Notes: a model not told the origin generated them from the letters alone. A stretch of DNA of 64,000 bases from Verrucomicrobiota bacterium (GCA_020831625.1 JAFIGD010000003.1:1-64000); one strand, 5' to 3'. Counted from the first letter of the stretch, positions 15,783 through 21,170 are shown. Numbers and translations are program-made.

Positions 15783-16496
15783 TCAGGTATCCGCAATCGG
15801 AAACACACCGGAATCCTGAAGCTGCTTTAAGACCGTTCCGGCCCAGTCGCGGTTGGCGGCGGGGCTGGCGGGGCTTGGGTGGAGAATCCGGACGACCTCG
15901 CGCCCGGGACAGGCCACCCTGAGTTTGGATTCGGCGTAGGCTCCGATCCCGACCAGGTGGCGGGGGGAAAGCAGTTCGATCATCCGGACGAGGTGGCGGG
16001 TGCAGAGATCCTCGAGGGCCTTGCGCTCCGCGGACGGTAGTTTGTCGGGGGTGAGATTGGCGCCGGTTTCGCTCATGAAGACGAGCGGACAATAGTTGTG
16101 CACGGTGCAGGCGGCGAAAAAGCGGTCGGCGGTTTGGAAGGTTTCGCGGAAAAAGTCCCAGAGGCGGCGGCCGCTGACTTCGGAGCGAGCGCAGTCGAAG
16201 CCGGTTATGGGGCGTTTGGGGTGTTCGCGGGGCGGTTTGCCGACGGGAGCCTGAATGCCCAGCCAGTCGCGGACGCGGGAGACTTCGCCGAAAGGCACGC
16301 CGGTTTGCGCCATGCCCCAGGGGCCGGGGTTCATGCCCATGAACAGAACCTGAACCGGATGTTTTGTGCGTCCCAGATAGAGCTTGTGCGGTTCCCAGGC
16401 GTATTGAAGCGGGTTGTAGACGGCGGCGACCGGCGGCGAGAACGAAAGCGTGTTTACTTCTTCGGCAAACGCGCGGGTGATTTCAATGTGGGTCAT
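15783..16496 (-). CDS. SMUG1-type uracil-DNA glycosylase
   Basis: 237 aa. The signature GMNPGPWGMAQTGVPFG (about residue 53) contains the catalytic-loop Asn-Pro and uracil-pocket residues of the SMUG1 family, and HPSPASPAANRDW near the C-terminus matches the DNA-intercalation loop. The enzyme excises uracil and oxidised pyrimidines from DNA, initiating base-excision repair. SMUG1 is scattered in bacteria and is found in PVC members. Only 13 bases separate it from the upstream VWA gene, so it may be read from that operon. Confidence 0.92.
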   Translation of the reverse strand: MTHIEITRAFAEEVNTLSFSPPVAAVYNPLQYAWEPHKLYLGRTKHPVQVLFMGMNPGPWGMAQTGVPFGEVSRVRDWLGIQAPVGKPPREHPKRPITGFDCARSEVSGRRLWDFFRETFQTADRFFAACTVHNYCPLVFMSETGANLTPDKLPSAERKALEDLCTRHLVRMIELLSPRHLVGIGAYAESKLRVACPGREVVRILHPSPASPAANRDWAGTVLKQLQDSGVFPIADT

Positions 16497-16509: not shown

Positions 16510-17511
16510 TCAGTGATTCAGGCCGACAAAGGTGCCGCCGTGACGGTGGGCGATTTCGCGCATGAGGGTGGCGAAGCGGTAGCCGGTGTTGTTGGGGTGA
16601 AGGTTGCCGCGGATGACGACGGGGAAGCCGATGGTGTGGATTCGCGCGCGGAGGGTTCCGTCGGGATTGGTGTTGAGGCGTTCGACGGTGTTGAGAATGG
16701 CGGTCATGTTGCCGGGGCCGAATTCATCGCCGAGGACGTAAATACTCAATTTGGTTTCGGCGGAGGCGTGGCGGCGGAGGGCCTCCTGGATGCCTTCGAC
16801 GGGGGAGCTATTGCTGAAGGGCCACCAGGTGCGGAGGACGTTGATGAGGGCGCGGCGGCGGGCGGGGGTGTCGGGAATCCATTGGCCCGCGTACTGGGGG
16901 AACATGTACTGGCCCATATCGTTCATGACCTGCAGGCCTTTGAGGTCGGGGTGGGCATCGAGAATCTCCTCCATTTGGCGGAGCATTTGCTGCCAGGCGC
17001 CGTGGACCATGCTGCCGGAGGTGTCGATGACGAAGATCACGTATTCGCTGTCGACCGGAACCCCGGCGATGGGGGAGCCGGGCGGGCGGGGTTCGTTGTA
17101 TTGCGCGAGGAGACGGCGCATTTCGTCGGTGAGGGTCTGGCGGGCGGCGGCGAGCTGGTCGGCGATGGTGTTTTGCACCTGCGCCATGTCCTGACTGGCG
17201 GCGAACTCGCCCCGGATTTCGGAAAGATCCCCCCGGAGGCGGGCGAGGTTTTCCTCCTCCTCGCTGAGCTGACGGCGTTTGCCGGGGAGGTCGCGGTTGA
17301 GACGGGTGACTTCGCCCTGGAGTTCGAATTTCTGTTCCTGAAGGTCGCGGAGAAGGCCGGAGAGGTCCTCGCGGGTGGCTTCAATGACGGCGGGTTCTGC
17401 GGCTTTGCTGAGGACGAACAGCAGGATGATCGCCCCGAATCCACAACAGATGCTGTCGAGGAAGCTCAGGTTGAAAACATCGAATTCACGGGATTTTTTT
17501 CGACGGCGCAT
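16510..17511 (-). CDS. membrane-anchored VWA-domain protein with coiled coil
   Basis: 333 aa. A basic start (MRRRKKSREFDVFNLSFLDS) precedes one membrane helix (about 17-36, ICCGFGAIILLFVL), an ExbD/TolR-like topology. A coiled coil rich in Glu/Arg/Leu follows (about 45-135), and then a von Willebrand A domain with MIDAS motif VIDTSGSM (about residue 155) and a downstream YVLGDEFGPGN. The VWA part is therefore predicted to be periplasmic. It is the last gene of a four-gene minus-strand unit with 3-18 base gaps. No catalytic function can be assigned; it probably forms a metal-dependent protein contact. Confidence 0.85.
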   Translation of the reverse strand: MRRRKKSREFDVFNLSFLDSICCGFGAIILLFVLSKAAEPAVIEATREDLSGLLRDLQEQKFELQGEVTRLNRDLPGKRRQLSEEEENLARLRGDLSEIRGEFAASQDMAQVQNTIADQLAAARQTLTDEMRRLLAQYNEPRPPGSPIAGVPVDSEYVIFVIDTSGSMVHGAWQQMLRQMEEILDAHPDLKGLQVMNDMGQYMFPQYAGQWIPDTPARRRALINVLRTWWPFSNSSPVEGIQEALRRHASAETKLSIYVLGDEFGPGNMTAILNTVERLNTNPDGTLRARIHTIGFPVVIRGNLHPNNTGYRFATLMREIAHRHGGTFVGLNH

Positions 17512-17525
17512 TCAGGGATTGTACC

Positions 17526-18767
17526 CTATGGATTGCCGAATTCCAGCACTTTCAGGATTTCGGGGACGATGATTTCCTCGCCGCCGCGCTGATTGGTGTG
17601 GTTGCCGTCGCGGAAATAGGTGCGGTAGGCGCCCATGCCTTTGTCCTTGAGAATTTCCGCGAAGATGGAGAAGGTGTCGATGTGGTAGACGCCGGGGCCG
17701 GACTGGTTGGCGAGGTCGACGTACATTTGCGCGTAAGCGGACTGGGGTTCGTTGGAGACCTCGCGGTCGGAACCGTCGCGGTCCGATCCGTAATTCCGTC
17801 GGCCGGAATCGAAAGACTTCGCGCCGGTCCAGAGGAAAATTTCGACATCGGGATTTTGGGCGCGGAGTTCACGAATGATTTTTTCGTGGTTGGCGCGGGA
17901 TTCGGCCACGGAGATATTGAACCGGTTTACGGCATCGCCGCCGGGAGCGAATTCGATGATGACGGCGTCGGGTTTTTCGTTGGCGACCCATTGCAGTCCG
18001 CGGCGGAAATCGCCCTCACTGTTGACGAACCGCGTGCTGTGGGCTCCGGCGCAGGTGGTGCCGCCCAGGCGGAGTTCGCCGAGGTCTCTGAGCCGCTGGG
18101 AGAGGGTTCCTGGCCAATTGGTGCGGGCACCGGAGGCGCACTGATGCCAGGGGGCGTCGATGCGGGCGTTGGGGAACTCGGCGGTGCTGTTGCCGACGAT
18201 AATCAGATAAGGCTTTTGACCGCTCTCGAGCAGGGTGAGAAAGCGGGTTTTGCCGCCGGTGCCGAAACGGAGATCCAGATAGTTGGCCGGGAGCGCCGCC
18301 GCCCATTGGTCCCACGCGTCGGCCGGTGCGGATTGGCCCTGTGAGCGGAGTTGGGCGGATTGGCCTTCGGCGAAGACCTGGAGGTTTTCGACGAGAATGG
18401 CGAGGCGTTCGGCGCGGGGGCGTTCAATGCGGTCGAGCTGTTCGGTGAGAATATCCTGATAATGGCGGACACCGGGGTTGTCGGACAGCACGGGCGGGCG
18501 GAGGGACTCGTCGTTCCGGGCCCGGTCGCGCTCCTGTGTGAGGGCTTGCAGGTTTTCACCGGAGAGGGTTTCCATGCGGCGCTCGAGGCCGGCGACGTAT
18601 TGTTGGCGGAGAGTGGCGACGGCCTCATCGCGCGCCTCGTTGAGCTGAGCCACTTCCTGATCCAGCCGGGACTGCATGGTTTCGAGCGTTTGGGCGTATC
18701 CGAAGCGTGCGCATGACAGGATGAACAGCAGGAGGAGATGGAGTGTGTATGTTGATATTATTTGCAT
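17526..18767 (-). CDS. secreted coiled-coil/SGNH-hydrolase-like protein, paralogue 1
   Basis: 413 aa. A signal peptide (residues 1-25, cleavage near FGYA-Q) is followed by a coiled coil (about 26-125, ETMQSRLDQEVAQLNEARDE) and an SGNH/GDSL-like domain. Block I reads IVGNSTAEF with the Ser. Block III reads EFAPGGDAVNRF, where the usual Asn-Asp has Gly in place of the Asn. Block V DGNHTNQRG supplies the Asp and His. It may be an esterase or deacetylase with an altered oxyanion hole, or a binding protein. It is nearly identical to the next gene upstream over the first two-thirds. Confidence 0.75.
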   Translation of the reverse strand: MQIISTYTLHLLLLFILSCARFGYAQTLETMQSRLDQEVAQLNEARDEAVATLRQQYVAGLERRMETLSGENLQALTQERDRARNDESLRPPVLSDNPGVRHYQDILTEQLDRIERPRAERLAILVENLQVFAEGQSAQLRSQGQSAPADAWDQWAAALPANYLDLRFGTGGKTRFLTLLESGQKPYLIIVGNSTAEFPNARIDAPWHQCASGARTNWPGTLSQRLRDLGELRLGGTTCAGAHSTRFVNSEGDFRRGLQWVANEKPDAVIIEFAPGGDAVNRFNISVAESRANHEKIIRELRAQNPDVEIFLWTGAKSFDSGRRNYGSDRDGSDREVSNEPQSAYAQMYVDLANQSGPGVYHIDTFSIFAEILKDKGMGAYRTYFRDGNHTNQRGGEEIIVPEILKVLEFGNP

Positions 18768-18785
18768 CGTGTAAGGAACTTTCGA

Positions 18786-20039
18786 TTAGCTGTTTCCGTT
18801 TTCCAGCACTTTCAGGATTTCAGGGACGATGATTTCCTCGCCGCCGCGCTGATTGGTGTGATTGCCGTCGCGGAAATAGGTGCGGTAGGTGCCCATGCCT
18901 TTGTCTTTCAGAATTTCAGCGAAGATGGAGAATGTGTCGATGTAGTAGATGCCGGGGCCGGATTGGTTGGCGAGGTCGATGTACATCTGCGCATAGGCGG
19001 ATTGGGGTTCATCCGAGACTTCGCGGTTTGTGCCCTGACGTTCGGACCCGTAGTCCCGTCGCCCCTGATCGAAAGATTTCGCCCCGTTCCAGAGGAACAT
19101 TTCCATTTCGGGGTTTTGATTGCGCAGGGTGCGAATGATATGTTCGTGGTTGGCCCGGGATTGGGCCACGGAAATATTGAACCGGTCCGCGCTGTCAATT
19201 CCCGCCGCGAATTCGATGATGACCGCATCCGGTTTTTCGTTGGCGATCCATTCTAAATGGTTGCCGTGCTGGATGTATCCTCCGCTGCCTTCCACAAATT
19301 CATTACTGTTCGTTCCCGCGCAGGTGGCTCCGCCCAGCCGGAGATCTCCGATGGCTTTGAGGCGTTGGGAGAATTCGCCGGGCCAGTTGGTGCGGGTGCC
19401 GGGGGCGCATTGTCTCCACGATGCGTCGATGCGGGCATTGGGGAATTCAGCGGTGCTGGTGCCGACGATAATGAGATAGGGTTTTTGACCGCTTTCGAGC
19501 AGGGTATAGAAGCGGGTTTTGCCGCCGGTGCCGAAACGGAGATCCAGATAGTTGCCCGGGAGCGCCGCCGCCCATTGGTCCCACGCGTCGGCCGGTGCGG
19601 ATTGGCCCTGTGAACGGAGCCGGGCGGATTGGCCTTCGGCGAAAACCTGGAGATTTTCAACGAGGATGGCGAGACGCTCGGCGCGGGGGCGTTCGATGCG
19701 GTCGAGCTGTTCGGTGAGAATATCCTGATAATGGCGGACGCCGGGGTTGTCGGACAGCACGGGCGGGCGCAGGGATTCATCGTCCCGGGCACGGTCGCGT
19801 TCCCGGGTCAGGGCCTGCAGATTTTCGCCGGAGAGGGTTTCCATGCGGCGTTCGAGGCCGGCGACGTATTGTTGGCGGAGGGTGGCGACGGCCCCATCGC
19901 GGGCCTCGTTGAGCTGCGTCACTTCCTGATCCAGCCGGGACTGCATGGTTTCGAGCGTTTGGGCGCGGAGAGCCGTGCCGGTCAGGATCAGCAGACAAAA
20001 ACGGACCGGGAGGCCGGTCGGGAGGGCTTGAACGCGCAT
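18786..20039 (-). CDS. secreted coiled-coil/SGNH-hydrolase-like protein, paralogue 2
   Basis: 417 aa and the tandem copy of the neighbouring gene. It has a signal peptide (cleavage near ALRA-Q), the same coiled coil, and an SGNH-like domain with IVGTSTAEF, EFAAGIDSADRF (Ile replaces the block III Asn) and DGNHTNQRG. Across the first about 195 mature residues the two copies differ at only about a dozen positions, but the central active-site region (about 195-285) is clearly more different. It begins 3 bases after the LamG-like gene. Confidence 0.75.
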   Translation of the reverse strand: MRVQALPTGLPVRFCLLILTGTALRAQTLETMQSRLDQEVTQLNEARDGAVATLRQQYVAGLERRMETLSGENLQALTRERDRARDDESLRPPVLSDNPGVRHYQDILTEQLDRIERPRAERLAILVENLQVFAEGQSARLRSQGQSAPADAWDQWAAALPGNYLDLRFGTGGKTRFYTLLESGQKPYLIIVGTSTAEFPNARIDASWRQCAPGTRTNWPGEFSQRLKAIGDLRLGGATCAGTNSNEFVEGSGGYIQHGNHLEWIANEKPDAVIIEFAAGIDSADRFNISVAQSRANHEHIIRTLRNQNPEMEMFLWNGAKSFDQGRRDYGSERQGTNREVSDEPQSAYAQMYIDLANQSGPGIYYIDTFSIFAEILKDKGMGTYRTYFRDGNHTNQRGGEEIIVPEILKVLENGNS

Positions 20040-20042
20040 GGA

Positions 20043-21170
20043 TTATTCTCGGGCGGAATTGGACGTCGGCGTGATAAAGTCCGGCAGGAAAAAGTCGGGG
20101 AGCATGAGCAGGTCGTCGGGATCGATGCCTTCAACAATCTGCTGAATGCCCTCAAGCTGCGGCTGTCCGTCGGCGGGGCTGAGGGTCAGGGTTTGCCGTG
20201 TGCCGACCTCCGGAGGGCGGGTTTCTGGAAAGACGCGGGTGTCGAGGACATACCAGTGCCAGGCGAAAAAGCGGTCGCCGGCGGCGAGATCGTCCCCGAG
20301 GGGCTCGTCCAGGGTCCAGACGGTGGCCAGGAGGGCTTCACCGTATTCGGAGAGGTTCTCGGTCTTGGGCTCAAGGGCGTGGGCGTGCAGGGTGGCGGTG
20401 ACGGTGCGGGTTTCCGGCGGGGTGCGGGCGCTGTGCGCGGCGCTCCAGGCGGCGGCGTGTTTCTCCACCGCGTGCGGCACGGTACCGATCAGCAGATATT
20501 CCATCGCGCCGGTCCACACGGAGGAGGGGTCGGAGGTGCCGCCGAAAGCGGCGATGACATCCCAGGGGTCCTCGAAAACGGGAAGCAGGCTTTCGGCGGC
20601 GCCCTGTGCATGTTCCGCGCCGTTGAGACGGAGCGTGAAGTGTTCGTCGGTCAGGGTGAACGCGAGGTGGACGGGTGTTTCGAGTATAAGCCCGGTCAGA
20701 CGGACGGGATCGGTTTCGGGGCGCTCAATCCACAGAGCCTGATCGCGGAGCGTTACCCGCCAAATGAGATCGTTCTCGAAGGTTTTGAGCTGAAAGAGGA
20801 TGAGGGTCTCCCCGGTGCCCGCCGGGGGATGGAGGGCGGCTTCAAGGTGGAGAGAAGACGTCTCGGCGAGCGTCCGGGCCAGCGCGGGACCGACATCAGC
20901 CGATTCGATGTACCCTTTGTTCGGCGCGGCGCCGCGGAACCAGACCGGGCGGGCCTGATCCCGCAGGAGCGCTTCGCCCTCACGGGCCCAGTTCCCGTCG
21001 GCATCGACGATTTCGCCGGTGAGGGTTTGGGTGCCCCAGAACCAGAGCACGCCGTCGGATTCGCGGTTGGACGCGGGCCACGCGGGTCCGGACGCGGCGG
21101 CGGGCGGGAGCAGGAGGGCCGCGGCCAGGGCCGGACCGAAAAGGCGGATGTGGAGAAAATGTGAGGTCAT
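20043..21170 (-). CDS. secreted LamG/concanavalin-like domain protein
   Basis: 375 aa with a signal peptide (about 1-26, LFGPALAAALLLPPAAASG). Residues about 30-225 show a LamG-type jelly-roll pattern (HLEAALHPPAGTGETLILFQ; HLAFTLTDEHFTLRLNG; AMEYLLIG). The C-terminal about 120 residues form a separate domain without a recognised family. It is the first gene of the unit that continues with the two SGNH-like genes and the VWA gene. A carbohydrate- or peptide-binding role in the periplasm is an inference from fold and context. Confidence 0.65.
   Translation of the reverse strand: MTSHFLHIRLFGPALAAALLLPPAAASGPAWPASNRESDGVLWFWGTQTLTGEIVDADGNWAREGEALLRDQARPVWFRGAAPNKGYIESADVGPALARTLAETSSLHLEAALHPPAGTGETLILFQLKTFENDLIWRVTLRDQALWIERPETDPVRLTGLILETPVHLAFTLTDEHFTLRLNGAEHAQGAAESLLPVFEDPWDVIAAFGGTSDPSSVWTGAMEYLLIGTVPHAVEKHAAAWSAAHSARTPPETRTVTATLHAHALEPKTENLSEYGEALLATVWTLDEPLGDDLAAGDRFFAWHWYVLDTRVFPETRPPEVGTRQTLTLSPADGQPQLEGIQQIVEGIDPDDLLMLPDFFLPDFITPTSNSARE

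Follow-up and report, generated by a model that had tools for sequence, protein, structure and literature searches.

At positions 16,510 to 21,170 of a 64,000 nt stretch of DNA from a Verrucomicrobiota bacterium (GCA_020831625.1 JAFIGD010000003.1:1-64000; termed the window), four closely packed genes lie on the minus strand (Table 1). The host assembly (G000) is a 4.89 Mb draft of 111 contigs whose closest named relatives are Kiritimatiellota metagenome bins, and the window belongs to its contig C43. ORF calling reproduced exactly the four genes described in an initial annotation, with gaps of 3, 18 and 14 bp; the last of these is a clean junction between two intact ORFs. Upstream of the group, the part of the window between 21330 and 58909 is rich in polysaccharide-degradation genes, including those for a DUF1961/LamG protein, a heparinase II/III-like lyase, GH43 and GH31 proteins and an alpha-L-fucosidase.

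Table 1. The four-gene locus and the gene that follows it in the window.
Feature	Position	Strand	Remarks
LamG/ConA-like protein, predicted secreted	20043..21170	-	375 aa; gene 1 of the LamG-SGNH module
SGNH-a	18786..20039	-	417 aa; signal peptide, N-terminal coiled-coil domain, C-terminal SGNH/GDSL domain
SGNH-b	17526..18767	-	413 aa; tandem paralogue of SGNH-a
VWA2	16510..17511	-	333 aa; basic N-terminus, transmembrane helix, coiled-coil, VWA domain
Uracil-DNA-glycosylase (UDG) superfamily gene	15783..16496	-	neighbour, probably unrelated; 13 bp past VWA2

The N-terminal helix of VWA2 (FNLSFLDSICCGFGAIILLFVL) resembles that of ExbD and TolR and contains the motif FLD with Asp19. Hydrophobic windows of this helix begin at residues 11-28, and inspection of its sequence reveals no SHLS motif. 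With Pfam, the protein gives a weak match to VWA_2 that falls below the cut-off (E=0.003). A scan of GTDB genomes with VWA2 yielded 126 relatives; the locus counts given here refer to the best 80 of these (45-77% identity; Kiritimatiellota, Acidobacteria, Gammaproteobacteria and a few others). The helix aspartate and the MIDAS motif DxSxS are each invariant in 80 of these 80 homologues, and the window protein retains the invariant residues, both of these features among them. The ExbD/TolR-like anchor that had been proposed for this protein is upheld.

The best 80 relatives are found in a conserved operon with the order ExbB/TolQ-like gene, gene X, VWA1 and VWA2. In 80/80 loci the gene immediately upstream of VWA2 is VWA1, a VWA-encoding paralogue, at a distance of -1 to 96 bp (median 2). 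VWA1 likewise carries the helix aspartate (77/77 in the best-80 loci) and a MIDAS motif that is nearly invariant across homologous loci, and the two VWA proteins of the host genome are 29% identical. An ExbB/TolQ-like gene is present near VWA2 in 70 of the 80 loci, which agrees with the earlier expectation that VWA proteins with such an anchor belong with ExbB-like motors, and 8 of the remaining 10 loci are cut by contig ends. Contig ends do not explain the other two, L019 and L055; L019 represents a second split motor, with VWA1 and VWA2 together on one contig (G019:C303) and ExbB on another (G019:C316). Within the class, VWA2 occurs in 10 of 346 genomes, and VWA1 adjoins it in the nine other than the host. 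ExbB of the motor type was present in each of the ten relatives with VWA1 that were searched; the two searched relatives without VWA1, G005 and G011, had no such ExbB. The motor ExbB passes the Pfam model MotA_ExbB (1.1e-12), and several of its threonines (190, 213 and 223, numbered by the L001 row) are invariant in the alignment.

Gene X, located between ExbB and VWA1, is missing in nine of the 80 loci. Its representative in the host genome (L088:7550-8575) matches no Pfam or NCBIfam model. The predicted structure of the protein (pLDDT 87.7) has Ssz1/Hsp70 as its top Foldseek match (E=1.4e-11, TM 0.56), and on this model an Hsp70 nucleotide-binding fold is assigned with high confidence. Homologues of X also have an FHA-like C-terminal part, recognized by a weak profile match.

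Analysis of the host genome revealed that its motor genes are split. As the initial annotation had said, no ExbB/TolQ gene is present in the window; the genome nevertheless encodes one, on contig C80, where ExbB (C80:68866-69531), X and VWA1 (C80:70564-71646) lie together. This ExbB is 87% identical to that of L001. C80 carries no VWA2, and the only copy in the genome is that of the window. A few bases past the VWA1 stop codon, a large convergent gene begins that was named AsmA-like from inspection of its sequence; it matches no Pfam model. Neither VWA1 nor VWA2 is a standard ExbD by the Pfam model PF02472, a search with which gave 11 ExbD matches in the host genome, neither VWA protein among them. 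We therefore rejected this classification for VWA2, whose likeness to ExbD is confined to the helix. None of the 11 ExbD genes is located within the window or beside the C80 operon.

Three further members of the genus (G001, G002 and G003; G001 and G003 are the same genomes as L001 and L002 under second labels) were used for comparison. The motor operon is intact in G001 and G003. In G002, ExbB, X and VWA1 are followed by the same convergent AsmA-like neighbour as on C80, with VWA1 and the AsmA-like protein being 94% and 74% identical to their counterparts. VWA2 was not detected in this 530-contig draft, and the G002 contig with the LamG and SGNH genes ends inside SGNH, where VWA2 would come next. 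The conservation of the operon elsewhere, the absence of VWA2 from C80 and the recurrence of the same junction in G002 indicate that VWA2 has been displaced, and the simplest history places this event in the ancestor shared by G000 and G002. The complete displaced arrangement is known from one draft genome, the support from G002 consisting of the absence of VWA2 and the contig break.

Since the host assembly is a draft of 111 contigs and shows the complete arrangement alone, we considered whether VWA2 could have been joined to the wrong contig during assembly or binning. The clean 14 bp junction of intact ORFs and the grouping of VWA2 with its genus speak against such an artefact, as does the finding that the VWA2-less junction of C80 recurs in G002 at 74-94% protein identity. 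We regard an artefact as highly improbable.

The displaced gene is also neither foreign nor decaying. In trees, the window VWA2 groups with G001 and G003, as do VWA1 and ExbB; this agreement argues against horizontal replacement, and acquisition of VWA2 from outside the genus was ruled out. Comparison with genus relatives gives dN of ~0.19 and dS of ~1.0-1.1, and thus VWA2 is under purifying selection, which excludes decay. A different possibility is that VWA2 has been neofunctionalized as a free-standing protein, leaving a motor that uses a VWA1 homodimer. The separate contig of VWA2 in the host genome and the G002 operon in which ExbB, X and VWA1 persist and VWA2 went undetected would both fit this explanation. 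However, G002 is a draft of 530 contigs and its LamG-SGNH contig breaks at the critical point, whereas the window protein keeps the helix aspartate and the MIDAS motif and has diverged from the shared relatives about as much as VWA1 has. Neofunctionalization is for these reasons unlikely, and VWA2 has very probably remained the partner of VWA1 within the ExbB motor.

The three genes upstream of VWA2 have a separate distribution. The window LamG protein is not recognized by Pfam on its own (E=0.14); its identification as LamG-like, made in the initial annotation, gains support from a homologue that passes Laminin_G_3 at 4e-8 and from a predicted beta-rich fold of moderate confidence (pLDDT 68; no solved structure matched with a TM-score above 0.40). 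Most Foldseek matches of this model were to clostridial toxin binding domains. These were dismissed as relatives (TM-score at most 0.40, ~10% identity, mostly rmsd >12 A) and are attributed to a common lectin-like fold. Searches of PDB sequences with LamG and SGNH profiles gave no match. In other Kiritimatiellae, lipoprotein-like propeller-LamG proteins are homologous to it over their C-terminal half, and the genes of these proteins lie beside genes for AlgX-type SGNH acetyltransferases in four genomes (L141, L142, L144 and L145). In two of these four loci, Pfam also identifies MBOAT O-acyltransferase genes. The composition of such neighbourhoods suggests a polysaccharide O-acetylation locus.

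The two coiled-coil/SGNH-like proteins named in the initial annotation were confirmed as such, since they match Lipase_GDSL_2 at 3.7e-10 (above the cut-off) and 1.3e-7 (just below it). They are fusions whose N-terminal coiled-coil domain is common to other secreted proteins of the family. Although 82% identical overall, they form a mosaic in which the coiled coil is 96% identical (dS 0.29) and the SGNH core (191-345) 70% identical (dS 0.91). This pattern is consistent with gene conversion that would homogenize the shared part while the two SGNH cores stay distinct. The block I serine (S194) and the block V Asp-x-x-His residues (D387 and H390) are invariant in nine SGNH proteins. In contrast, the block III asparagine of the oxyanion hole, which is kept in five single-domain relatives, is replaced by Gly, Ile or Thr in all four full-length fusions. 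This replacement makes SGNH activity doubtful and is also the reason why SGNH-a and SGNH-b were not filed as canonical SGNH esterases. The proteins share with SGNH/GDSL carbohydrate esterases and AlgX-type acetyltransferases their secretion, the serine and Asp-x-x-His residues and, through the LamG relatives, the proximity of AlgX and MBOAT genes. They differ from both groups in the missing block III asparagine, in their N-terminal coiled-coil domain and in giving no AlgX Pfam match.

LamG-SGNH pairs are present in the host genome, in G002 and twice in G001, where both pairs are on contigs other than that of VWA2 and the motor operon is intact. Wherever the downstream end of the pair is assembled in other members of the genus, no VWA2 follows. 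LamG-SGNH is a separate module, which probably acts on glycan ester groups.

This distribution bears directly on the initial view that all four genes specify a single envelope complex. In such a complex, VWA2 would tether the secreted LamG and SGNH proteins in the periplasm, ExbB would act in trans, and the assembly would recognize and deacetylate wall or surface polysaccharide. The tight spacing on one strand is compatible with this proposal, as are the glycan-related neighbours in the window and the occurrence of LamG relatives near AlgX acetyltransferases. Between the LamG gene and the gene upstream of it lie a ribosome-binding-like AAGGA motif and a hairpin resembling a terminator (21355-21336); promoter- and terminator-like sites, hairpins included, are not more frequent than chance in the region, which is also in keeping with one unit. 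However, the run of short gaps on the same strand continues past position 16510 into the UDG-family gene, a DNA-repair-type gene, and then a ferritin-like gene, so spacing alone is a weak argument here. Moreover, relatives of LamG or SGNH occur in 0/80 of the best 80 VWA2 loci, VWA2 is found in many genomes that lack them, and the two pairs of G001 are on other contigs than VWA2. A search of other genomes for the four-gene order gave none, the broken contig making G002 uninformative on this point. While a glycan role for the LamG and SGNH proteins remains plausible, the single four-gene system is thus unsupported, and we judge it improbable.

We consider it likely that two unrelated modules have been joined at this locus: a displaced subunit of an ExbB motor, VWA2, and a secreted glycan module, LamG-SGNH-SGNH. 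The motor itself is a prediction from its genes and from published AF3 models. It would be driven by the proton motive force and consist of an ExbB/TolQ-like pentamer surrounding a two-helix axle, in which VWA1 and VWA2 would form a heterodimer replacing ExbD/TolR, with the Hsp70-fold protein encoded between ExbB and VWA1 as a putative partner. In an ancestor within the Kiritimatiellota genus, VWA2 would have left the operon and landed behind a LamG-SGNH gene pair, and the window protein presumably still joins the C80-encoded ExbB and VWA1 in trans. The passage of protons at the conserved transmembrane aspartates may then turn or move the axle and hence the periplasmic VWA heads, which may bind a metal-dependent ligand in the envelope. 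Independently, LamG would bind an external or surface polysaccharide on which the two SGNH isoforms might remove or transfer ester groups. By moving next to LamG-SGNH, VWA2 could have gained a real regulatory or functional connection to this module that is invisible in other genomes; such a link, having adjacency in one genome as its basis, is unsupported. A more elaborate reading, in which an asymmetric, proton-driven motor with an obligate VWA1-VWA2 heterodimer as its axle is regulated by the cytoplasmic Hsp70-fold protein and was wired to the LamG-SGNH glycan proteins by the gene move, appears doubtful.

Several known systems resemble this predicted motor. The ExbB-ExbD, TolQ-TolR and MotAB motors are 5:2 complexes with which it shares a MotA_ExbB protein and a transmembrane aspartate in the anchor. 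Unlike them, it has a coiled coil and a VWA domain in place of the periplasmic domain of ExbD/TolR, as well as two different axle subunits. ExbB also matches ZorA models of the Zorya ZorAB system weakly (2e-5), and no other Zorya model matched among six proteins tested. The gene content is also unlike that of Zorya. Given only this weak ZorA similarity, we rejected a Zorya-type anti-phage defence function.

The closest description is that of the TPH-vWA motor class, proposed in 'Origin and Evolution of Bacterial Periplasmic Force Transducers' (Mol Biol Evol 2025; PMC12204202), where it is the second vWA family. According to the available text of that paper, the class comprises a TolQ-like gene and heterologous VWA gene pairs without TolR/ExbD, in Proteobacteria and Verrucomicrobia. 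The pore helix has a conserved proton-binding aspartate and no SHLS motif; a threonine ring of the ExbB pentamer faces this aspartate in a 5:2 complex set in motion by proton flow, and the function of the class is given there as unknown (PMC12204202). The system described here agrees with that text in its ExbB partner in the same genome, its heterologous VWA pair, its lack of a syntenic tolR/exbD and its pore-helix aspartate. It differs in that VWA2 is split from ExbB-X-VWA1. The available text makes no mention of the Hsp70-fold gene that separates ExbB from VWA1, nor of the PEGA-FGE, TPR and lipoprotein-like genes found ahead of ExbB in gammaproteobacterial and acidobacterial loci. We regard as new the split of the motor genes, the Hsp70-fold partner and the larger gammaproteobacterial and acidobacterial cluster. 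A literature search on the parts of this larger operon found nothing.

What looked like an orphan gene group can thus serve to test a class of motors about which little is known. That VWA2 has stayed conserved outside its operon speaks for a need for both VWA proteins. The system is widespread in Kiritimatiellota, Acidobacteria and many Gammaproteobacteria, which include the cultured marine genera Halioglobus and Seongchinamella, so that knock-outs should be feasible. Leads on the job of the motor are provided by the Hsp70-fold protein and by two components of the longer operon, a PEGA-FGE protein and an M48-peptidase-like gene. In this longer form (L028:1-11713 and about 60 further loci), lipoprotein-like, TPR and PEGA-repeat plus FGE-sulfatase genes precede ExbB, and in many Gammaproteobacteria VWA2 is followed by two small lipoprotein-like genes and the M48-peptidase-like gene, which was recognized by sequence inspection. 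The best NCBIfam match of the FGE domain is GldK, at 1.4e-27 and below the cut-off.
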